Positions 19,297 to 63,472 of a stretch of 64,000 bases of DNA are shown here, in pieces. The position numbers and the translations under genes are program-made. Positions within the stretch are counted from its first letter, which is position 1; every line of letters begins with the position of its first letter. The DNA lies in assembly GCF_020520425.1 (NCBI RefSeq), contig NC_079492.1, forward strand, positions 144,429,861 to 144,493,860, read 5' to 3'. Origin of the DNA: Spinacia oleracea. Its lineage: Eukaryota > Streptophyta > Magnoliopsida > Caryophyllales > Amaranthaceae. The notes beneath the pieces were generated by a model, which ran no database searches, had not been told where the DNA came from, and saw only the letters and a program-made list of their open reading frames with translations.

Positions 19297-20575
19297 GATA
19301 CCATACTGTAACGCCCCGACTTTTCGATACCTTAATTAACGGTAATAAGCCGTGCTTAGCTCATCATTAGCAGCGGAATTAGGCATAATTAATCCTAGGA
19401 CCTGTGGGTATGGGCCCACAAATAAAATAATTCTCAAATAACACTCCTTTAAATAATACAATATTTCCAAAATAAATATAACAATATTCTCATAATAAAA
19501 AATCCAATAACAGAATTTCCATAATAAATAATTTCTCGTCTTAAAATCTCCATAATAAAGTACTGACTCCAGTAATAACTCTCTTCTTGAGCAACTTTAG
19601 CTCCTTAACCGAAATTGTACATCATTATAAAATAGAAAACAGGAAAACACACAGAAAAATTCCAAAAATGAGTGGAAAACTCAGTAATATTACTCCAACT
19701 CGTCAAAATGGTTTTATTTTGAAAATCATTTGGAACATATCAATCATTAGCATTTATTGTTCGGAAATAACTAACTTAATCTCGTTATCTTATAAACTGT
19801 GTAGGCAAAGAATCATTTCCTTTACAGCTCATGGCAAGTACAGGTTTTGGCGGAACTTTTCTTACATCATTAAGGGGGGGGAACGCGTTCCATTTAACTT
19901 TGACTTAAGATGGCCTCCACTTGTAACTCGCCCATTTACTAGTTCAGTTCACTTTTCCATGCCGACAAAAGCAACATCGTATTTCTTTAAAATAACTTTA
20001 TCATAGTTATTCCCGAACAACGTCTTTAACATCATAAAATAATAACATAACATATTATATAACAATGAACTCATAAACCTTAAATTATCCATCATTTAGC
20101 ACATAATTCATATAATCACGTAATCACATATTTCATATACGGGCATATAAACTTAAATGCTAGACATTAAAATAATCTAATACTTTTATGTACGGACGTA
20201 TAAACATAATTGTTAAAATTACAATAACAATTACCTCGATCGCTTATCCTTAATCATCCGATTTGATCTCTAGTCATTATATCTGAAACCTTATTCACGT
20301 CCACTTATTTCCTTATGTTCCCATATGAAAGCATAAATTAGAAACTATATTTATTGTTCTTGACTTTTGGTTTAGGAAAATATCAAAACCATTAAATTAG
20401 GAAACTATTACTTAGCCTTCCTTCATATATTCTGACCAAGCCCAAACAAAATGATCTTTATTAAAATAAAACCAATGGCCCACTAACAACTCTTCTTTTT
20501 ATTTTGGTTGGGTTTCCATAAGGAGATTATGAATTAGAAGGAAGCAGCGTGAAGCAGAAACTGCTAATTCATTAT
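19297..20575 (-). mobile_element. LTR fragment with primer binding site (Ty3/gypsy-like TGTAACRCCCC ends)
   Basis: In the minus direction the unit ends GTCGGGGCGTTACA at 19313, then after three bases comes TGGTATCAGAGC (19309-19298), a tRNA-Met primer site. Inward, TTCCGCTGC and AATAAGCC-like words recall the end of the larger LTR-like unit at 30757-33678. The outer end is not defined, so the right limit is an estimate. No coding sequence is seen. Confidence 0.4.
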
Positions 20576-20580
20576 ATATA

Positions 20581-21115
20581 CTTCCTCCATTTATTTTTTA
20601 ATTGCACCATCCGAAATTTCACGTTTGCCAATGCACTATTTTAACCACTAATATCTCTCATTATATATACTCTTTCCGCATTTATTTAAGAGATACACTT
20701 GGCCGGACACGAGTAGAATTGAATGAAATAAAGTAATAAAACAAGTGGGATTGAGTAGATATTTTAATAAGAAAAACAAATGGGGACCATGTCATTTTAG
20801 GGAGTGGAGGGTGGGGTTGGGGTGTAGATATATTATTTAATTAGATGGTGGGGTTGATAAGTTACTAAAAATGGCAAGTGTATCTCTTAAATAAATACGG
20901 CCGGAAAAAGCAAGTGTATCCCTTAAATAAATACATAGGGAGTATTAAAAAATTATAAAAATTTGATAATTTCAAAGAATATTTCAAGACGAATCTAACA
21001 AGATCCCGCATTAATATATTTTTCCTTACATATAAATCACAAAAAATAACTACATAAGAATATGAAAATAGTGTTAAAACCAAGATGGTGCAATTATAAA
21101 AAAAAATGGAGGAAG
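20581..21115. mobile_element. Stowaway-type MITE, interrupted by a second MITE
   Basis: TIRs CTTCCTCCATTTATTTTTT on the left and the complement of AAAAAAATGGAGGAAG on the right, each bounded by TA; GCACCATC and GATGGTGC lie just inside. The interior is interrupted at 20670-20942 by another TA-flanked MITE. Confidence 0.85.
20670..20942. mobile_element. Stowaway-type MITE nested in the 20581-21115 MITE
   Basis: TIRs CTCTTTCCGCATTTATTTAA and TTAAATAAATACATAGGGAG, bounded by TA. An internal sub-end (AAATAAATACGGCCGG) repeats the terminus. It is closely related to the MITE at 53807-55642 and represents that element's uninterrupted form. Confidence 0.88.
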
Positions 21116-21199
21116 TATATATCTTCAGAATTATAAATTTGTATTAAAATTACTATTTTTGGTGGAAAATATTTTCAAACGGGATATCACAAAGCAAAA

Positions 21200-23560: not shown

Positions 23561-23808
23561 TATTGGATTATTATGTACTAAGTGATGCAATCAGCTTATT
23601 GTAGCAGCTGTGATTAATGCTAATTGTAACTAACTGTTGCTGACTCATCACCACATCAGCATAACAGATTCACTAGAAATCAGTTACGCATTGTAACAAC
23701 TTTTAGTACATTCTAGAATTATGCTAAGCTATAAATACTACTTGTAATAAGCTTGTGATTATCAATCAATACAATTTCTAAATTCTGTTTTCTTCCCAAA
23801 TCTTATCA
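23561..23808 (+). repeat. 5' LTR of the copia element in the LINE
   Basis: 248 bp, followed directly by the primer binding site. It contains a TATAAATA box near 23733. Confidence 0.93.
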
Positions 23809-24031
23809 TGGTATCAGAGCAGGTCTTATTACCTGCGTTCTTCCTGAAAATTTCGCGAAAAATTCTTCTCAAAATTGTTCCTGAAATTCGATTAAAATCA
23901 CAAAGTGTTTGCTGATTCTGATCAGAAATTCAGAAATTCTTTTCTGATTGATTGTCAATTTGTTATTTGGCTATCGTTTTTCTAGTTGATTACTTCCTGA
24001 AAATTGTTAATTCTTCATCAAAACACTGAGA

Positions 24032-27000
24032 ATGGCTGGTGAAACTGAATACAATGAGGATCTGAGAAACAATGGAGTTCTTCCTCCAAATCAAAATCCT
24101 GCACGCATATACTACATTCATCCATCAGATGCTAATACTGCACAGCTTGTTTCCTTCAAATTTAATGGAGAAGGTTTTGCTGGATGGAAAAGATCAATGA
24201 TGTTAGCATTGTCAGCAAAGAATAAGATTGGATTTGTGGATGGCAGCATAGTCAAGCCAGTTTTTGATACTATTGAGTGCAAAGCATGGGAAAGGTGTAA
24301 TGATCTGGTCTGTTCAATGATACTGGGAAATCTAAGTGAAACTTTGGCTAAAAGTGTGATGTTCTTGAAATCAGCAAGGGATGTTTGGCTGGATCTTGAA
24401 GACAGGTTTGGTTTCACTTCAATGACACAAGTTTATTCACTAGAAGAAAAAAAACTAGCTGAGTTGAGTCAAGGAGATAAGTCAGTATCTCAATTCTTTA
24501 CTGAGATTAAATCAATCAGGGATGCAATTGAGGAGGCACATCCAATGCCATATTGTACTTGCAATAACTGTACATGTAATGTCACCAAGAAGTTTTTCCA
24601 GAGGCAACAGGAAAAGATGGTGATGCAGTTCATGATGAAGCTAACAGACCAGTTTGCAACAATCAGAGGAAATGTGCTGATGGTACCTACTCTACCAAAG
24701 GTTTCAGAAGCTTACAGGCTGTTTACTCAAGAAGAAAGACATCAAGAAGTTTCAAAGAATGTTTTTTCCACAGAATCCATGGCATTTGCTGCAGAGAAAA
24801 GGAGATTTGGTGGTGATCATTGGAACAACAAGAGTTATAAAACTCAAGCAACAGGTTCTCATTCAGCCAATTTTCAGAAACCATTGCTCAGTAAAGGGAA
24901 ACCAGGATCTGGATATTTTTGCACACATTGCCAAATACCTGGACACAGTATTGACAGATGTTTCAAGATCCATGGTTATCCACCAGGTTTCAGGAATTTT
25001 AAGGATAACAGAACAGCTGCACTATCTTTTGATAATTCTGAAGTAGTGCCTACTAAGGTTGAGCCAACAACTACAATCTCTGTGGATCAATACCACCAAT
25101 TGATGGAGCTGCTAGGCAAGCAACAGCAACAGGCACAAGGAGCTCTAACAACTAATCAAAACCATAATGCAGCACTGATGGCAGGTAACATCTTCTTATT
25201 GTCTCATTCCAATTCTAAGTGGTTGCGTGATAGTGGTGCATCAGATCACTTTTGTTGTGATCTTTCACAATTCACTGCTTATAAAATTGTAGAAGATAAA
25301 TCTACCTATATCACTATACCTAATGGCAGCAGAGTTCCTGTGAAACACATTGGATCAGTTGTACTCAATGATGAGATCACTTTGCATAATGTCCTGCATG
25401 TACCAGAATTTAAGTATAATATGATTTCTGTACACATACTATGCAAGGACCTAGATTGTGAAATGCATTTTACTCATGAAAAATGCTTTGTTTGCTGTCA
25501 GAAAGGGAGGGTGATTCCTCTTGGTGATGTTAGTTCTGGTCTGTACAATGTGGGAGAACAACAATTAAGAGGAGCAGTTCCTGTGGAGTCACATGTTTGT
25601 AATGCAGGTTGTTCTTCAGTCATTGACAATGCAAAGTTATGGCACTTGAGAATGGGACACCTACCTTTTAGTCAGCTGAAACATGTAGACACTAATTATG
25701 AAATAAGCCCTTGTATGCATGATACTTTATGTCAAGTATGTCCTGTAGCTAAGTAGAATAGGTTAAGCTTTCCTCACAGTAGTATTAAGTCTAAAGCTCC
25801 ATTTGAGTTGATTCACATTGATGTTTGGGGACCTCATTCTGTAAAAATCTCAACTGGATGTAATCAATTTTTAACCATAATGGATGATTTCAGCAGATTT
25901 ACATGGATTCACATGTTGAGAAATAAAAAAGAAGTTGTTCCTGTTATGACAGATTTTTTGAATATGGTTCAGACTCAATTTGGTGTATCTGTCAAATGTG
26001 TTAGGTCTGACAATGCCAAAGAGCTGTGTGAGGGTGAATTGAAACAGTTGTATCTTAAACTTGGCATACTTACTCAAACCAGTTGTAGCCACACACCTCA
26101 ACAGAATGGGGTAGTTGAGAGAAAACACAAGCACTTATTGGAAACAGCAAGAGCTCTTTATATACAATCAAGGGTTCCATCAAGGTTTTGGGGAGAGTGT
26201 GTCATGTGTGCAGCTTATCTCATAAATAGAATGCCTTTGAAAGCTATCAATCTTGACACACCTTATTTCAGAATGTTTGGCATTGTTCTCAATCTCTCTC
26301 ACTTGAGAACTTTTGGATGTCTTTGTTATGTTTCAACTTCTAAGGTTGGGAGAACTAAACTTGACAGCAGAGCATCTCCATGTGTGTTTATGGGATACTT
26401 AGTTACTCAGAAGGGTTACAAGGTGTTAGACATTGATACTAATAAGTTATTTGTTTCCAGAGATATTCAATTTCATGAGAAACACTTCCCATACCATCTT
26501 TACAACAAACACAAACCACCTACTTCTAATTACACCAATGCCATCTTTCTTCCAGCTTTTGCTTCACCACCTTTATTTGATACTCCTGATTTCACCACTC
26601 CAGAACATATCTTTCCCACTTCTCATTCTATACCTAACACTCCCACTTCCTTCTCTTCTCCTGTTTCTTCTTCCCCACTTGTCACTTCTCCCATTGATAC
26701 TGGATCAACATCATCTTCCAGTCATAATACTCATAATGAAGAACAAATTGTTTCTTCCACACCTATGAACCCCATTTCTACTGTCACTCCTCCTCTAAAC
26801 CATCCTAGACAGTCCACAAGAAACCCCAAACCTCCTTCTTACCTAAAAGATTATATCTGTCACACAGCCACCTCTCAAGATCATATTCATGATCTAACCA
26901 CCACCCACTGGTGCAATCTGGTATCTTACATCACATTTCCCACAGATTTTAAAGCTTTTTTATCTCAAACCTGTGATATTCAAGAACCAGTGAATTACAC

Positions 27001-28519
27001 AGAAGCTGCTAAACATCAAATCTGGGTGGAAGCTATGCAGAAGGAGATAGAAGCATTGGATCACAATCTCACATGGGAATTGGTAGAATTACCAAAAGGA
27101 AAGAAAGCTATAGGTTGTAAATGGGTTTTTAAAGTTAAACTGAAGTCTTGTGGTGCTTTGGAAAGGTGCAAAGCAAGGTTGGTAGCTAAGGGATACAACC
27201 AGAAGTATGGGATTGATTATGAAGAAACTTTTAGTCCTGTGGTTAAAATGAGTACTATAAGATGTCTCATTGCAGTTGCAGCAAGTAAACACTGGCCACT
27301 TTACCAACTTGATGTAAACAATGCATTCCTTCATGGTGATCTAAAGGAAGAAGTATATATGCAAGTTCCAGAAGGCATTCCTAATCCTACAAACAAGGTC
27401 TGCAGATTACTCAAATCTATATATGGTCTAAAACAAGCATCAAGACAATGGCATGAGAAGTTAAGAACAGCTCTTGAACATCAAGGTTTTATTCAGTCTA
27501 AATTTGACTACAGCCTGTTCATTCACAGAGAAGGGAACCACATCAATATTGCTGCTGTGTATGTAGATGATGTCATTCTTACTGGCACTAATCCACAAAA
27601 ACTTGATGAGATGAAATCTTACTTACACACAGAATTCAGCATCAAAGATTTGGGGAGACTAAATTATTTTCTGGGCATAGAAGTTGGGTATACTGATGAT
27701 GGTGTCATTTTGAGTCAAAAGAAGTTTACTAAAGAACTTTTCTTTGACTGTGGTTTTGATCTCACCAAGAAAGCCATCACTCCTTTGCCTTTAAATATCA
27801 AACTCACTGCTACTGATGGAGTTTTATATGCAAACACAGAGAAGTATAGGTCTTTGGTTGGCAAACTCAACTTTTTGACCCATACAAGGCCAGATTTATC
27901 TTATACACTTCAATCTCTGAGTCAGTTTCTTCAAGCTCCTAGGGAACCTCATGTAGCTGCTTTACAACATACATTGAGATATGTTGCACATACTGAAGGA
28001 CAAGGGATCCTACTTAAAGCTGCAAACAATATTACTTTACAAGCTTTTTCAGACTCAGATTGGGCAGCTTGCCCTGATTCCAGAAGGTCAGTGACAGGCT
28101 ATGTGTTGTTACTTGGTGGATCACCTATTTCTTGGAAGTCAAAGAAACAAACAACTGTTTCTAGATCTTCAGCAGAAGCTGAATACAGGGCCATGGCAGC
28201 AGCAACATCAGAAGTCACCTGGATAGTAAATCTCCTAGCTGATATGGGGGTACATAATTTAAAGCCAATTTCTTTACTTTGTGACAATCAGTCAGCATTG
28301 CACATTGCCAGAAACCCAGTGTTCCATGAGCGTACTAAACACATAGAAATAGACTGCCATTTCACAAGGGACAAAATTCTTGATGGGCTCATTCACCTCA
28401 CTTACTTGCATACTCAACAACAGCTAGCAGATGTATTCACCAAGCCCTTGCCTTCTGCTCAATTTCAGCTGTTACTATCCAAGATGGGATTGTCTGATTC
28501 TCACCCCCTTCCATCTTGA
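24032..28519 (+). pseudogene. copia gag-pol coding region, about one break
   Basis: Parts in order: gag (FNGEGFAGWKRSMMLALSA), zinc knuckle CTHCQIPGHSIDRC, protease with the motif DSGASDHF, GAG-pre-integrase (LWHLRMGHLP), integrase core (IHIDVWGP, SDNAKELCEG, QQNGVVERKHKHL), Ser/Thr/Pro linker, reverse transcriptase (QLDVNNAFLHG, IYGLKQASRQW, AVYVDDVILTG), and RNase H (FSDSDWAACPDSRRSVTGY, SSAEAEYRAMA, HIEIDCHF). Domain order protease-integrase-RT-RNase H defines Ty1/copia. Treated as a fossil. Confidence 0.92.
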
Positions 28520-28526
28520 GGGGGGA

Positions 28527-28774
28527 TGTTGGATTATTATGTACTAAGTGATGCAATCAGCTTATTGCAGCAGCTGTGATTAATGCTAATTGTAACTAAC
28601 TGTTGCTGACTCATCACCACATCAGCATAACAGATTCACTAGAAATCAGTTACGCATTGTAACAACTTTTAGTACATTCTAGAATTATGCTAAGCTATAA
28701 ATACTACTTGTAATAAGCTTGTGATTATCAATCAATATAATTTCTAAATTCTGTTTTCTTCCCAAATCTTATCA
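28527..28774 (+). repeat. 3' LTR of the copia element in the LINE
   Basis: 248 bp, preceded by the polypurine tract and followed by GAGAC. Confidence 0.93.
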
Positions 28775-29760: not shown

Positions 29761-29999
29761 CTCCCTCCGATCCTATTTGTTGTATCCATTTGGAATCTTA
29801 GGGGGTTTTTTAAGAAAACTGGAATCTTGGTTTATATGGGTATAAGTGTAATAATTGGGTGTAAGAGAAATGATTGTGTGTAAGTGATTGGAATAAAAGA
29901 AGGAGAGAGAAAACAATAAATAATTAGTATAAATGGGAGATATTTTATTATTATTAATAAAACAAATCAGATTTCATCACCACTAATTTGTATACCGGA

Positions 30000-30465
30000 A
30001 TTCGAACAAAAATCAACAAAAAAAAATCAAGAAAATTCGAAAAAATTCAACCCGGAATTCGAACAAAAATTCAAACAAAAAAATCAACCTAAAAATCAAC
30101 AAAAAGAATCAACAAAAATTAACCCAGAAATTCGAACAAAAATTCAAACCCAGAAATTCGAACAAAAATTCAAACCCAGAAATTCAAATAAAAAAATCAA
30201 CGAAAAAATCAACCCAAAAATCAACAAAATTCAACCCAGAAATTCAAACAAAAATTCGAACCAAAATCAACCCAGAAATTCGAACCAAAATCAAGAATTC
30301 GAACCCATAAATCAAGAAATTCAAACCCAGAAATTCAAGAATTCGAACCCAAAAAACAAGAACTCGAACCTAGAAATTCAACCCAGAAATTCGAACCAAA
30401 ATCAACCCATAAATTCGAACAAAATCAACCAACAAAAAAGCGACAAATTCGAACCATAAAAATCA
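30000..30465. repeat. A-rich imperfect minisatellite
   Basis: Many degenerate copies of a unit built from AACCCAGAAATTCGAAC and AAAAATCAAC words, unit size about 20-30 bp, with no reading frame maintained. Confidence 0.75.
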
Positions 30466-30756
30466 ACAAAATAAAATAAAAATCGACAATTTTACCATGA
30501 ATCCAAGATTTTGAAGATTTAGAGGTCAAATTCGACCATTAAAACTCTAGATCTAGAATTTTTATGACCGAATTTCACCACCTAAAGCCTTAATATAGAG
30601 TTTTTTTTCCCAGAGGATGGTGGTGGAGGCGGCGGAGGCGGAGGCGGCGTGGGTGTGGTTGTGGTGGTTGCGGCAGAGAGAGAAATGAAGAAGAAGAGGA
30701 ATGAAGAAAATCACAGAGTTTTTGGAGGAGAGAGAAAAAAAATCGGAGAGGAAGAT

Positions 30757-43844: not shown

Positions 43845-46069
43845 TTGTTTGAACATATGTCCATGTCAAGTATTAAGACAGTATGCACTTCGTACTTTAT
43901 ACGGAGTCACCAATTCTGAAAAAGATTCGTTAAAGGCCAATTCTTTCAATAAAAAAATAAGATGGCAGAATTTTATATCAAATACGGAGTACTTGGATAT
44001 TATAAAATCAATTGGTGCGACTGTTTTTTTTTTTTTACGTTCTGTGTATGAATTTAAATTATTTGGGGGTTTGAATTAGTATTGATTTCGATTTTGTTGT
44101 TTATGTTCAAGAACAAAGAACCTCACTTAGTCACTTATCCTAACAATAAAATAATGCTATCGTACATACATGATACATACTCCCTACAAGAAAAGACGTA
44201 TTTGAGTTTGTTTGTTTGTTAATTTATACTCCGTAATAAATTATTTATTACTAAAGCTCAATCATCTAGGTTTCCTCAAACAAAGATTTATGGAGTATGA
44301 TTCATCTAAGAATAACCCTCATTTTTTAAGTTCTTGATTAAAAGAATGTGGTAGAAGAGAAAAGGTAGGAGTTCATTGTACGTTGTTAATAAACAAGCAA
44401 AAATTAAACACAATTCTTTATTGAAATGGGCCTAAAATAGTAGGGTGATGATAAAGATCGCGAGTTGCTACAACATTTAATTGTAGCAATCTTACGTGTC
44501 AGAGTTTAATTGGTACATATAGACGCCACGTAGGCTATGCGTCATTTGAATATTTTTACTACGGAAAATGAAAATAAGATAGCCGATATGAATAAGGAAA
44601 CAAATTATAATATTAAGATTTTCCTACATTTTTTTTAATAACATGTATAATAGGTTATACTCCGTATAAGTTAAATATTTTAGTTTCCAATTTAAATCAT
44701 GGCACATAAGCATATCATATCATCATTGTGACACAGCTTAAATATTGCATGTTACTGCCTCTATCATTTTTAAAAATGGTATATATTGGTTGCTCAATTG
44801 ACAACTCAAATTCGACTTCTTCTATCGTTTTAATCTAAAGTAACATATTTTGAACTACGTAGTACGAAGAACCACTTAACAACACTTTGATTTTAAAATT
44901 TTATGTCTGAGAAAAGCTCATACAATTATTTAACGTGGCAACAAAGAAAATAAACTAATTCACATTTTAAGTTTCGTATTTTAAGCATTTTGTACTTTGT
45001 TACGATTTATAATTTAGCAATAATTTTCATTTAACAAGGTTTTGTATCCAATAGATTTGGTACGCTTTAGATTTCAAATGGTGGAATTTTCTTTCATATG
45101 TCACTTTCGAAGACTTTGATTGGTAGATAGATATTCAGTAGAGAAATATGGAACCATGAATAATGGTCCAAAATATGAAACAATCAAAGTTTGAATATTT
45201 TACTCAAAATTTGAATTAGCGTAAGATAACGGTATGCCATTATGATAAACAATTGATAGTTCAACTTCAACCCACATAATACTCCGTAGTTGATATTTCA
45301 TTATTGATTGATAATTTGATTATCTTTTCATAATTCCTTCACTTAAAGCTGGTAGGCTCAACAATACACTTACCTCTCGTGACAAGAAACGTACATAACT
45401 TTCAATCTATCATGATGGTCACGGGCTCATGAGGTCAGAACGTTCACTATTCAATCGGTTGTATCTTGCGAGATTTTTCACCAAGACTATTTTTTCACTC
45501 TCGTCGCCGTATGTTCATAAGATATGAGCACATGGACAAGATACTAATCATAGTTATGGTTATGGTTGTATGAAAAATTACCCCGTCTCCGTATGAATAT
45601 CGAATTGAAGCATCGGATATTATAGTCTATTCCATACACAGTATGGGAGAAACGATTAAGATGTGGAAATGATATTTTCGCAAGTTTTGTATTATCAACC
45701 ACGAAACATCTAATGATGGAATTAATATAATAAAAAAACAAACTACTCCGTATGAATAAACTTCTTAAAGGAAGAAATACATATGATGGAACTCTATTAG
45801 GTATCTTTGAAGCTCCGATTTCAATTGACAATTGAAAAGGAAATCTACATATCTTCACAAAAAAGTATCCATCACTCTCTTCACGAGAAAGTCTATGTTA
45901 AAAATGACTTTAGTAATATCGATAAATTTGGTTTTCGTACTGATTATTGTGTTATTGGTCTATTAACACACTGACACTACAGTACTTACTACTTAGTACT
46001 ACTTCTGTTGTGTTATTAATACCAAAAAACATTATATCGGATAATTTACGAAAAGGCTACATATTATGG
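43845..46069. other. Intergenic, no gene recognised
   Basis: AT-rich with several TACTCCGTA words. Frames at 43837-44079 and 45544-45858 lack protein likeness. The tRNA-Cys upstream region is at the left edge. Confidence 0.45.
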
Positions 46070-53500: not shown

Positions 53501-53806
53501 TATGATATAATGCCAAAGAAATAACTCAAGCATTACCACAATTTATTACATTATTCGTTCCAAAATAGTTACATCACTTTGATTTTCAAGTGTGCCAATA
53601 TATAACTTTGACCACTAATATTTGTAATGTACTAACAAAAATCATGAAAAAGTTATATATTTAAAATATACATAGATACAAACCCAGTATCATTTTACAT
53701 AATAACCTTATTTTTATTTATTAGTAGAAAATTATACTCAAAATAAGATAAATTCATAGTGTCAGAAGTCAAATGGTGCAACTAGTCTTTTTTAAAATAT
53801 CTGATA
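53501..53806. other. AT-rich spacer, possible decayed MITE
   Basis: TTCGTTCCAAAATAGTTAC near 53554 and a weakly complementary right side (GTGCAACTAGTC) suggest an old Stowaway relative, too diverged to delimit. Confidence 0.3.
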
Positions 53807-54142
53807 CTCCCTCCGTATTTATTTAAGAGATACACTTGACCGGGCACGAGTATTAAGAAAAAGAATTGAATGAAATAAAGTAATAAAACAAGTGGGGTTA
53901 AGTAGATATTTTAATAAGAAAAACAAGTGGGGACCATGTCATTTTAGGGATTGGGGGGTAGGGGTGTGGTGTAGATTTATTATTACGGTTTTTTCATGAA
54001 ATGCCCCTGAGGTTTCACGAAATTCACCAAATACCCCTGCGTGTTTCAAAATACATAGTATACCCCTATTTGAACTTAGAGTGCACCAAATACAACCTTG
54101 ACTTAACGGCCGTTAGTGTTCCGTTAACGTTATTTTACCTTT

Positions 54143-54733
54143 ATGCCCTTACTCACCCAATATTTTACATTTAACTTTTTTTTTTTAAAGAAAAAATTCC
54201 TCTCTCTTCTTCTTATTCTCTCTCCTCTCCTCTCTGTTGCTCGACCCATCTTTGACATCCTGTCTCTATTCATCTTCTTCTTCTCTCTCCTCTCTTCTTC
54301 TGCCATTGTTGCTCTCTTCACAAAACAAAAAAATATTTCTTGCCCATTGATTAGCCTAACCCAACGCGAATTCGTATCCATTTTCCAATCTGAATTCAAC
54401 CGTAAACCCTCTTCTTTGGGTTCGCCCTTCTTGTTTCTCCAATCTCAGTTCAAGCGGCGACTTATCCGACATGATATCGCCTCCGGTCAACCCATGTTGG
54501 TCGCCAATGAGAGCGGATCTCACCGCGGTGTGTCAGGCGTTCGCGACGGTGGCGGAACCGGACAAAAGTTTGGGTTTGCAATTTTCAATTTTTTACCCAA
54601 TTTGATTTGTTTGAGGTTTGGAATTTTAAAGATGGATAATGCGGTGAGTCGGAGGAGGGCGATAAACGCGAGTTTCTCCAATCTACCTTCCCGTATGTTC
54701 TCCTCTGTGTTCGGGCGATTATTTTCCAATTGA
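54143..54733 (+). other. Open frame of mixed origin in the TIR element
   Basis: A 196-codon frame runs from the left TIR through pyrimidine-rich DNA into more GC-rich sequence (54440-54700). Another frame there reads MRADLTAVCQAFATVAEPDK, which looks protein-like. This part may be a second captured piece or the 5' end of the captured CHCH gene, but I cannot identify it. Coding function is doubtful. Confidence 0.25.
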
Positions 54734-54827
54734 TGATTTCAATTGTTTTTACTCATTTCCCATTTCAATTTAGGGACACCAATTTATTTCAATTTATTTC
54801 AATTTATTTCTCCATTTGGTGAGTTAG

Positions 54828-55019
54828 ATGGGGATGTCTCCAATTCATGCTTTACAAGCCACTATAGCTCAAGGTGTTGCTTTTGGAACTGGAAGTGTCG
54901 TAGCACACAAGGCTGTGGATGCTATTATGGGACCTCGCACAATCCAACATGAAACTGTTGGTACAGAGGTTGACAATATGATTTTGGATCTATGTTGTAA
55001 ATGTAAAACAATTCATTGA
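54828..55019 (+). pseudogene. Captured fragment of a CHCH-domain (CHCHD2/MIX17-like) gene
   Basis: MGMSPIHALQATIAQGVAFG is followed by TGSVVAHKAVDAIMGPRTIQ and HETVGTEV. The block AFGTGSxVAHxAVDAxMGPRTIQHE is the conserved hydrophobic segment before the twin CX9C (CHCH) domain in plant CHCHD2-like mitochondrial proteins. The frame then runs into unrelated sequence and stops; the Cys-bearing CHCH domain is absent, so the copy cannot work as the parent does. It lies in the middle of the TIR element, so it was most likely carried there. Intactness of the frame over this stretch suggests recent capture. Confidence 0.8.
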
Positions 55020-55642
55020 AGGTTAAAGGTTGGCGGCGAATATGATTTCCGCGGATATGAGTTCCAATATTGTCAATTTTTCCATATGATTTGGGATCTA
55101 TGTTGTAAAAACAGCAGATTAGAGAGAGATTATATATAGACACTAGAATTCGAATTTGTAGTTTAGATTTTCGATTTTAGGAATTAAACTCTCAAAATTT
55201 AATATTCTCTTCTTCAATATTATGGGTTTTGTTCTTCAATTTTCACATGTGTTCTTCAATTTTGGGCTTCAAATTCAATTATTAATGGTATAAGCTGTTT
55301 GGGTATTTGGTACAAAAAACTTTATAAATAGGTGTATATTATGCAAAAAGTTTATAAATAGGTGTATTTGGTGAATTATAAACATGACTTAACGGAGGAC
55401 TAACGGAAAGTCATAATAGGGGTATTTGGTGAACCAGTTTGAAAAAATAAGGGTATTCTATGAATTTTGAAACGCGCAGGGGTATTTGGTGCATTATTGC
55501 AAACCTCATGGGCATTTCATGAAAAAACCGTATTATTTAATTAGATGGTGGAGTTGATAAGTTACTAAAAATGACAAGTGTATCTCTTAAATAAATACGG
55601 CCGGAAAAGGCAAGTGTATCCCTTAAATAAATACAGAGTGAG

Positions 55643-56378
55643 TACTAATTATAACTGACAGGCCGTGATAGATAATGAGCTTACTAAACCTCATAAATAC
55701 TCAACCAACTACCCTCTCTAAATTTACCCTATCCCTCCTTACTTTTCACCCAAATACACTTTTCACCTTTAACCTTCTCACCCACTCCGACTGACATAAA
55801 TCCGACAACAAAATCCGGCAACCACCACTCCGGCGAGGGGCAATTTCCCGCGCAACGTAAACCTCCGACGAACTTTTGTTTTTTGTCGGCAAAACTTACA
55901 GAGACTTTTACAGTTTGAATTTTCACCATGGTGAAGAGTTCTGCAGTCATGGCAAGAGCTCAAATAGAGTGGTGGAAGTCTCAAACTGGGGATTATGAAA
56001 TATCGTCCGTCAAGTGTACCACAGTACAAGTATCATCAGCAACTGGGAGGAGAGGTCTAGTTTCCCCTTGTTAGTGGGCAAATAGATATCCTATCTAAGT
56101 TGGGCCTCCTGCATTAGTACCATAACACAAAGGAATTCCTAACACAAATGCTTAGTAGTTAATACTTCGTACAATACAAATACAATATTTTTATATTGGC
56201 AGGTAATAAAAATAAAGCCCCCAAAGTCCCATTTTACACCCTCAGCCCCAATTAGGCCCATTGGACCCAGCCTCTTCCATCCTCATTTTCCACACTTTTT
56301 TATTTATTTTGAAGGGAAGTGAAAATCCGAATTTCCATATAACAAAAAAAATGGTGTATAACCAACATGTGCACAGAT
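55643..56378. other. Intergenic with a possible small frame
   Basis: A 48-codon frame (55928-56074, plus) reads MVKSSAVMARAQIEWWKSQ and onward to a stop. It is preceded by DNA richer in GC than its surroundings (55790-55900), like a leader. I recognise no family; it may be a gene fragment. Otherwise no gene is seen. Confidence 0.3.
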
Positions 56379-56719: not shown

Positions 56720-57278
56720 CCGAAACTCAAATGCTTAGTAGTTAGAGTGATGGGGTGTGATCATTGCCCTGCCGACAACAATTTTCCACAAAATTTAAGT
56801 GCGGTGGTAAATTGATTTAGAGTAATGGGGTATGATCATATGTATTAAGAATTTACGGACTATCAACGGATAGGAAATTTTGTAATTGTTTTCAAGTATA
56901 CACAACCAAAGATCAAACTCCAATGCCTAAGTGACCCAATTGAAACTCTATAGATAGCCATTAAATCAAATTTTGCTAGTTTACTAGTTTTGACTTGTAT
57001 TGTTGATCACTATTCACTAACTATACGGGGGAAAAAAAAATCGTAGAAAATATTTATTAAGTCATCCAGCACATAGCTCCAGTTAGTTAAGAATTTGGGT
57101 TCTAGTTGATTGAAATTTGGATGCGATAAAGAATCAAACCATGTGAGATGTAAACCTTCGAACACTAACCAGCTGAGAGTATGTTGTGACTTAACTCCTC
57201 CATGATGCTTGAAGACCGGTGGTAGTGGCGTTTGGCGAGGGATTGCCTTTTTGTCATTGGAAATTTTGTTAATATGAA
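56720..57278. other. Intergenic, no gene seen
   Basis: AT-rich; two near-repeats of 'GGGTRTGATCAT' at about 56752 and 56830 suggest a small duplication. Confidence 0.35.
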
Positions 57279-57711
57279 CTAGCTTTTGAGCTCGTTTATA
57301 GAACGGGCGGTTGTATAGTGGTTGTTCAGATGTCCTTTGAAGTTTTAATTAGTGATTACTTTTGATTTTTGGTAATATATGAATTAAATAGAGGTGTAAT
57401 TTGAAGGTTGGAAAAATATAAAAATTATATGTTGAATAAATATTGGATGTTAAAGGGTGGCGTGGAAGAGACTAATGAGTATATAAGACTATTAATAACT
57501 TGATGTTGAATAAGGAAAATAGAGTGGAAGAGACATTATAAGTTGTAAATCATAGAAACAATAAAGAAAAATTGAAAAAAAAAAAACAAAACAAAATAAT
57601 GGATGAAAAGAGAGATGCCACATGTCTTCTAATAATAAGATGGCACATGACTTCTAATAATCTATGATGTTCCTTTTTAAATACTAGGTATAGACTATCT
57701 ATATATATAGA
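57279..57711 (-). mobile_element. Non-autonomous Helitron
   Basis: The minus strand starts TCTATATATATAGATAG after an A, and CCTAGTATTTAAAAAGGAAC follows. It ends GCCCGTTCTATAAACGAGCTC (a short hairpin) then AAAAGCTAG before a T. The same family as 43266-43653 by start, end and several internal blocks. 433 bp, non-coding. Confidence 0.78.
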
Positions 57712-61411: not shown

Positions 61412-61608
61412 CTTGCAGTGTTTCCTCCCCTTTTCACCCTAACATTTTATTTTCCTGGTTTAAGTTTTTGGGGCGATTAAACCACACGGACAACATTCAT
61501 ATACAAAGTATTACAAATGCCGAAGTGGACATCTGAACTTACGATCTACTATTGTACACAAACGACCAGTCTTAAATTTTAAACACTAGGTCACACAATA
61601 ATTCGAGT

Positions 61609-61837
61609 CTGGATCCTCTAGAGTTTTAATAAAACTCTACAAGGTAGAGTTTTAATAAAACTCTACAAGGTAGAGTTTTATCTAAATCATACATTTTAAA
61701 ATCAATGGCTCATATTGATCAGAAAAAATATGGAAACCTTTGGAAAGATAATATATGAACCATTGATTTTTCATTCAATGCTTGATATGCTCAAACTCTA
61801 CCTTATAGAGTTATTTTAGAACTCTAGAGGATCCAAA
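61609..61837. mobile_element. MITE with GGATCCTCTAGAG ends and internal tandem repeat
   Basis: Ends TGGATCCTCTAGAG and CTCTAGAGGATCCA are complementary, followed inside by CTCTACAAGGTAGAG and CTCTACCTTATAGAG. A unit of TTTTAATAAAACTCTACAAG plus GTAGAG repeats in tandem at 61624-61680. AATAATTC occurs outside both ends (61597 and 61842), a possible long target duplication as in Mutator-like elements. Confidence 0.7.
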
Positions 61838-63472
61838 ACCCAATAATTCAAGTTTGTATATTCTAATATATTTTCTCACAATAAGTTAGATTAGGAGAGT
61901 TGCCTAGTTGCCTTTTAGGCTAATTACAAGTGACACAAACTGTACTAAAAATGACCAATTATTGTCACATGTCGGAGAGGCCATTATGGATCTAGAAAAG
62001 TACTCTAAGTCACAACTACACAAGTAGTAAAAGCCCGGTCCTTTCTTCTGTAGGACTCATGTGAACTGTTGGGTCAATTTGAAGTAAATAGTTTCATCAG
62101 TAATTTAGTACAATACCCAATTCAATTATTGTACCATGTACCATGATCTACCATCTAAATTACAGATCCGTTTTACAAAAACTGTTTTGGATTATCTCTA
62201 ATTCTCTATGAATGTTGGTGTTTGATAAGATATTTCAAACTTCAACCTTTAAAAGTAAAGTGTAACCATTTTTATGAAACAGAGAAGAAGACTGATTAAG
62301 TATACTGTAATGATTATCCGGTACCAATGTGTTGTCAAACACTCAAACACCATGTACTATAGGGGACAAGTCTTTTGTAATTTTAACGATTACTTGAAGG
62401 ATTGATAGACTAGTCCGATCATGTGCAAATTGTTTATTTTCGTACAAGAATGGATAATGGAGGTCCCTCCGTTCCAAAATAAATACCACATTTAACTTTA
62501 AGCGTTACATAGTACTATTTAAAGTATTTAGATGAGTATTAAATTTTCTAATTAAACTATTACTAATGGACCACTTACATAAGGTTCTAGTGCATCGAAC
62601 TAATCGCAATTATTAGGTGAGTTTATCTTGGGTAAGTACCACGGAGTAATTAGTTGGAATTGGTAAAGGAAGAGGACCACAAATATAAATATGATCTATA
62701 ATGCATAAAGCTTTCTTCTTTAATGCTAAATTTAGTAGTATTATGGAATATCTCCCTTTCAATGAGTTTTGTTCTTTACAAAGAAAACAACTTTTTAATT
62801 TTTTGTCTAACATGGTTAATCATGTATAAAAGTTCTTGTGTATATTCTGTATACAATAAATTTATTGTATATCGTGTAACTTTTAATCAGTTCGGTTTAA
62901 TTTTTAACTTGTTTTGATTTATTTTGTATATTACCCTTTTTTAATAGTTTGTGAATGATGTACTTTAATTACTATTTAATATTAATAGAAGAAAAAGAGA
63001 ATGACTCTTCCAAAATGGCAAAGGTCGTTATTAGCACCTTTAAATTAAATTAATAATGACTTTAATAGAGATTAAAGCATGGGGTTTTATTAAAATAGCA
63101 ATCAACAGGTGTCGATCAGTAAAGTGAATGATACCAAATCTACCTTAATGCCTAATTTTTGCAAAGACAGTCAGACATTTCACATAACATACTACTCATT
63201 GGTTTGTCCTCAACTATTTCTATCTAACCCTTTTACAATAAGAAAATACGTTTCTACGTTTTTTTAGAGGTACTTAACTCGCTAATCCATAGCCAATTAG
63301 AATATAAAAAAATTTGGATCCGACCCGAAATCCGATTGGAGCAAGCTCTTCCAACAAATGATGTTGCGTTCGGTACTCAATTATGATTGAACCCTAATAT
63401 TGAACAACCCCGTTGCTAGACTCTCACTAAAACGGATTTGAGTCGAGCCAACTCATAACTAAGGTGTTAGAG
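61838..63472. other. Intergenic, no gene recognised
   Basis: AT-rich. CCCTCCGTTCCAAAATAAAT at 62465 resembles a Stowaway end; a weak partner ACCACGGAGTAAT lies near 62640, so a decayed MITE is possible. The frames at 62613-62917 have no likeness to known proteins. Confidence 0.4.

Follow-up and report, generated by a model that had tools for sequence, protein, structure and literature searches.

The window, by which we mean the whole 64-kb stretch of DNA that was analysed, looks like plant DNA and carries a DEK_C gene, a glutaredoxin-type gene, a PADRE-domain gene and, on the minus strand at 43771-43845, a tRNA-Cys (GCA) gene, together with retroelements and repeats of several kinds. A Copia-type retroelement at 23563-28774 is confirmed by a Pfam match; its LTRs are 99.2% alike over 246 columns, and one in-frame stop codon splits its coding frame in two. 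A second, Copia-like retroelement (34995-40391) is 72-73% like the first and has LTR copies that are 100% identical over 351 aligned bases, a stop-to-stop frame of 1513 codons and, if the LTR is taken to start at TG, GTTTA on both sides; it is probably a recent insertion. Two palindromic stretches, one at 362-487 (self-pairing 90.6% over 128 columns) and one at 61597-61848 (several overlapping inverted repeats, 70-89%), are possibly small foldback-type elements. Dispersed repeats at 43266-43655 and 57277-57694 form an inverted pair (68% over 432 columns), and a tandemly repetitive stretch at 29920-30480, with an open frame rich in N, Q, K, E and F, is probably a minisatellite.

At 53985-55531 a TIR element is nested in a Stowaway-type MITE, as an earlier, sequence-only reading of this DNA had it. 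The flanks of the element are the two parts of one MITE on the plus strand (53804-53984 and 55532-55648), recognised by their match to an unbroken relative on the same strand; this relative was found where the sequence-only reading had placed it, although we measured its extent as 20667-20948 instead of 20670-20942. The left part is 86.7% identical to the relative over 181 columns and the right part 94.9% over 118 columns (55531-55648, of which one base is the element's last T). Both copies of the MITE start with TACTC and end with GAGTA, the Stowaway signature. The ends read TACTCCCTCCGT..GAGTGAGTA in the split copy and TACTCTTTCCGC..AGGGAGTA in the copy at 20667-20948, with TA adjoining inverted ends of the CTCCCTCCGT type; a search of IMG/VR with the MITE end gave no match. 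The sister MITE had also been put forward as the empty site of the insertion. Aligned to it without the target bases, the left flank shows 151 matches, 14 mismatches and 10 gap columns, and the right flank 105 matches, 6 mismatches and 1 gap column. These 20 mismatches and 11 gap columns mark the sister as a diverged paralogue, and it is therefore usable as a related empty site but is not a true empty allele. The sister MITE in turn lies within another small element with inverted repeats, at 20574-21122, whose arms (20574-20611 and 21084-21122) are 94.9% alike; a diverged unbroken relative of that element, with arms 95.1% alike, lies at 41907-42184.

The element inserted in the split MITE is 1547 bp long, an extent obtained by reading its ends and junctions and aligning its arms. 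ACGGTTTTTTCATGAAATGCCC begins at 53985 and its near-complement ends at 55531. The left terminal inverted repeat (53985-54127, plus strand) and the right one (55389-55531, minus strand) align with 77.5% identity over 151 columns (E 3e-26), which bears out the earlier description of a 1.55-kb element with long inverted repeats. The same description held that the element lacks a transposase, and we also detected none: 9 of the 21 element frames of at least 40 aa were scanned against Pfam, with 0 matches at the cut-off and no transposase domain, and we treat the element as non-autonomous. One frame resembled ParB at E 0.015, but its 15.9 bits fell short of the cut-off of 27, and the match, in a low-complexity stretch of the other strand, was dismissed as chance. 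No second copy of the element was found in the 64-kb window at E 0.01. TIR patterns had no match in the IMG/VR viral collection, nor had the TIR pattern any in prokaryote genomes, where a looser pattern picked out three bacterial stretches that we rejected as chance because blastn aligned them to the arms at E 0.058 at best. Papers matching the TIR strings were, judged by title and abstract start, not on transposons. Within the element, the stretch at 54405-54704 stands out by base composition, its G+C per 60 bp being 0.48, 0.57, 0.57 and 0.52 with one block of 0.30 in between. The frames tried over this stretch matched no Pfam family; it is possibly a second captured fragment, of unassigned source.

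The arms are modular. Four units of about 30 bp lie in the left arm at 53995-54098 on the plus strand (starts at 53995, 54025, 54054 and 54084; cores CATGAAATGCCC, CACCAAATACCCC, CATAGTATACCCC and CACCAAATAC), and six lie in the right arm at 55329-55521 on the minus strand (lowest coordinates 55507, 55477, 55448, 55417, 55359 and 55329), with a weak seventh at 55298. We scored chains of four similar 15-mers spaced 27-33 bp apart, tolerating gaps, against a null of 300 dinucleotide shuffles. Scores were 61 for the left arm and 67 for the outer 130 bp of the right arm, against 48 and 50 for the best shuffles; 0 of the 300 shuffles attained the four-unit chain, either for the left arm or for the outer four units of the right. 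A fixed-lag test for the ~30-bp period, with simple Markov resampling as its null, gave weak results. In the left arm the best lag was 21, and 32 of 1000 resampled sequences did as well; in the right arm it was 30, and 216 of 1000 did as well. The spacing of the units drifts, mostly between 29 and 31, a drift that a fixed lag does not capture. We also derived a motif from the element's own eight outer units, four per arm. It recovers two further right-arm sites, 55359 (20.2 bits) and 55329 (15.1 bits); beyond the element, its top score on the two strands of the window is 11.9 bits. Because of how the motif was built, only these two inner units, with the weak one at 55298, provide an independent check. 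In Galileo, repeats within long TIRs are described as extra transposase binding sites (PMC3688188, in the passages concerned). By analogy, the ~30-bp units may be candidate transposase binding sites.

Between the arms lies an exon-like piece (54828-54960, plus strand) that reads MGMSPIHALQATIAQGVAFGTGSVVAHKAVDAIMGPRTIQHETV. It opens a frame running from 54828 to 55016, has an acceptor-like TTAG directly 5' and is followed directly 3', after HETV, by a donor-like GTACAG. If these edges are splice sites, as we infer, then capture of the piece at the DNA level is probable. The sequence-only reading saw here a piece of a host CHCH-domain gene. The exon-like piece is indeed present, but its likeness is to the segment upstream of the CHCH domain and not to the domain, which was not seen in the cargo, and the resemblance to human CHCHD2 is weak, at 14 identities in 28 columns with a score of 44. 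That score was equalled or beaten by 14 of 2000 shuffles, the top shuffle reaching 60, and tblastn with human CHCHD2 on the window gave E 0.96 at the cargo, with one place better (0.30) and one equal. These figures leave room for a source gene other than a CHCHD2-type one, as does the lack of any match between the cargo and a Pfam family (2 frames) or a solved structure. Such a source is nonetheless fairly improbable, whichever superfamily the element belongs to, given that half of the aligned columns ahead of the CHCH domain are identical and that plant CHCHD2-like proteins carry nearly the same motif in that position, closer to the cargo than the human one. Derivation of the cargo from a CHCHD2-like host gene is, on sequence likeness, likely but unproven. 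No parental copy of the gene was found within the 64-kb window, and literature searches with CHCHD2-type strings returned matches to the animal string only. When the 63-aa cargo frame was searched in IMG/VR, 13 stretches matched the peptide pattern; we rejected them, as none encodes a relative.

The gene piece could also have reached its place in another way, by being filled in at the locus when a break was repaired, once the element was already in place. That only one copy is seen here, in a 64-kb window, fits such an origin, which has been suggested, in the relevant passages of PMC8277862, for the majority of single-copy Pack-TIRs in animals; the same source, however, quotes 481 of 1337 rice Pack-MULEs (36%) as multicopy. 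We regard break-repair fill-in as possible though somewhat doubtful, a judgement that is independent of the superfamily.

A perfect 6-bp repeat, ATTATT, flanks the element on both sides (53979-53984 and 55532-55537) when the ends of the element are read as ACGG..CCGT. On the sister MITE the matches of the two flanks overlap by 7 bases, 6 of which lie outside the element. We simulated 20000 insertions without duplication, using random 12-mers of the window as element ends, and an overlap of at least 6 arose in 59 of them. An overlap of this size is thus rare without duplication, and a target duplication is likely. The insertion point and the 6-bp ATTATT of the sequence-only reading are both seen by comparison with the sister MITE, but the length of the duplication is open to registers of 4, 8 and 9 bp. 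Scoring every end register and duplication length against the sister, we found that one base of the left flank differs in every register. No further change is needed for 6 bp with ACGG..CCGT ends, nor for 4 bp (TTAT, 53980-53983 on the left and 55533-55536 on the right) with TACGG..CCGTA ends. One further change gives 8 bp (TATTATTT) or 9 bp (TATTATTTA) with CGG..CCG ends, an eroded repeat whose copies lie at 53978-53985 and 55531-55538/39; at 9 bp, the left copy is short of one T. Two further changes are required for 6 bp outside TACGG..CCGTA. The 6-bp figure is drawn from one copy in an ATT-rich site, and one copy cannot fix the length of the duplication.

Because the 6 bp are read from this one copy in such a site, the earlier conclusion that the element fits no textbook superfamily is not forced: a MULE with an 8-9 bp duplication and CGG..CCG ends is one change away, and an IS3EU/GingerRoot element offers an alternative. 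A TIR lineage outside all described superfamilies, itself making 6-bp duplications, would account for the ACGG..CCGT register at no cost; with a single copy to go by, and two described kinds sufficing at one or two changes, we consider it very improbable. The ends can also be shifted by one base to CGG..CCG, which puts TA on both sides, the duplication expected of a Tc1/mariner-type element. That reading, however, requires an ancestral site with additional bases that are missing from the sister MITE, and a 2-bp duplication with CGG..CCG falls outside the 16 best-fitting register readings, making this origin barely credible.

We conclude that the element is probably a non-autonomous, Mutator-like (Pack-MULE-like) DNA transposon, an assignment to the MULE superfamily that is inferred from architecture and stands without a sequence match to any MULE. 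In its favour are the long arms with four ~30-bp units each, the target repeat, the exon-like stretch, the lack of a transposase domain in the scanned frames and the fact that an 8- or 9-bp duplication with CGG..CCG ends lies one change beyond the 6-bp reading. Against it, the error-free duplication with paired ACGG..CCGT ends is 6 bp, which is short for a MULE, the tips of the element resemble those of IS3EU, the fixed-lag test of the arms was weak, and a single copy was seen in the window. Pack-MULE target duplications are 8-11 bp long, usually 9. Among the literature matches, judged by title and abstract start, there was no report of a plant MULE with a 6-bp duplication, and the sole match for a Pack-MULE in Caryophyllales concerns grasses. 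For the MULE Muta1, duplications of 8-9 bp are given, within a MULE range of 8-10 (PMC5225508).

The main rival to the MULE assignment is that the element is a non-autonomous relative of IS3EU and GingerRoot, moved by an integrase-like DDD/E transposase. In the passages that describe them, complete IS3EU families invariably end in TA..TA and in most cases make 6-bp duplications, and GingerRoot of the clubmoss Selaginella lepidophylla has 6-bp duplications and mostly TA..TA termini (PMC10045372), while fungal IS3EU combines 6-bp duplications with TIRs of more than 30 bp and ends of the form TAYGG..CCRTA (PMC12730594). Our element likewise has TIRs of more than 30 bp, a 6-bp duplication in one register and, in another, TACGG..CCGTA tips, provided that the outermost T and A are counted as its own; they are equally readable as target bases. 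TAYGG is rare in the window, occurring at 191 of 127992 positions on both strands (0.15%), and repeat tables list IS3EU-labelled fragments in two plants, Stellaria (214) and sweet cherry (103). The tips and the duplication, however, fall in different registers: TACGG..CCGTA gives a perfect repeat of 4 bp only, the perfect 6 bp belongs to ACGG..CCGT, and joining the two in one register costs the two additional changes noted above. Moreover, the tip match was spotted post hoc, the plant labels are small homology counts in passages that carry neither duplication nor end data, the element offers no transposase for comparison in the frames scanned, and modular arms do not figure in the passages on these elements. 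We therefore see this rival as unlikely, if serious, and rank the MULE assignment above it because long modular arms and a gene fragment are a known MULE habit. Slightly less probable again is the fuller claim that the element is a gene-capturing, non-autonomous member or sister of IS3EU/GingerRoot, a 'Pack-IS3EU', in what appears to be a flowering plant. If true, it would have modular arms so far known from MULEs, and would extend the capture of gene fragments beyond the MULE, CACTA, Mariner, PIF and hAT elements covered, as far as its passages go, by the Pack-TYPE survey. Should further copies show 6-bp duplications and TACGG ends, a rarely noticed superfamily would join the gene-capturing elements of plants.

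For a Pack-MULE-like element, the history of the locus would run as follows. First, part of a host gene (probably a CHCHD2-like one) would have been captured between the arms as DNA, together with the edges of its introns. A transposase encoded elsewhere would then have recognised the arms, probably via their repeated ~30-bp units, and the element would have moved into an older Stowaway-type MITE, where it duplicated its AT-rich target. The duplication would have been one of 8-9 bp that is now slightly worn, or one of 6 bp as now read. The insertion of an element carrying a gene fragment into a smaller element is a type of event common in plants. The locus illustrates clearly how a nested insertion can be read against a related empty site, and how ends and duplication stay open to three readings when the target is AT-rich.

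The host and the insert are very probably of different kinds: the host MITE, with its TACTC..GAGTA ends, belongs with the Stowaway MITEs (Tc1/mariner), whereas the inserted 1547-bp element very probably does not. Like the Pack-MULEs of rice, which contain host gene fragments (PMC8903248, PMC13317346), and those of other plants, the element is non-autonomous and has long TIRs around an apparent host gene fragment; it differs from them in its error-free duplication of 6 bp. A close parallel is found in MuTAnT, a MULE family of Medicago truncatula that has long TIRs composed of modules and sits in AT-rich microsatellites, where repetitive flanks kept the authors from fixing most target duplications, which were 9 nt where clear (PMC4486113). 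Our element resembles MuTAnT in its modular long TIRs and in its insertion in AT-rich repetitive DNA with a duplication that is hard to fix, but MuTAnT has GGGG/CCCC ends, 90% of its copies measure 200-300 bp and its target is (TA)n. In root-knot nematodes, the Mutator/Foldback family Tm1 has TIRs that average 93% alike, compared with 77% in our element, and 45 of its 53 complete elements show duplications of 8-10 bp (PMC3169594). Like our element, both Tm1 and Arabidopsis FARE1 (named in PMC4486113) have composite TIRs with internal repeats.
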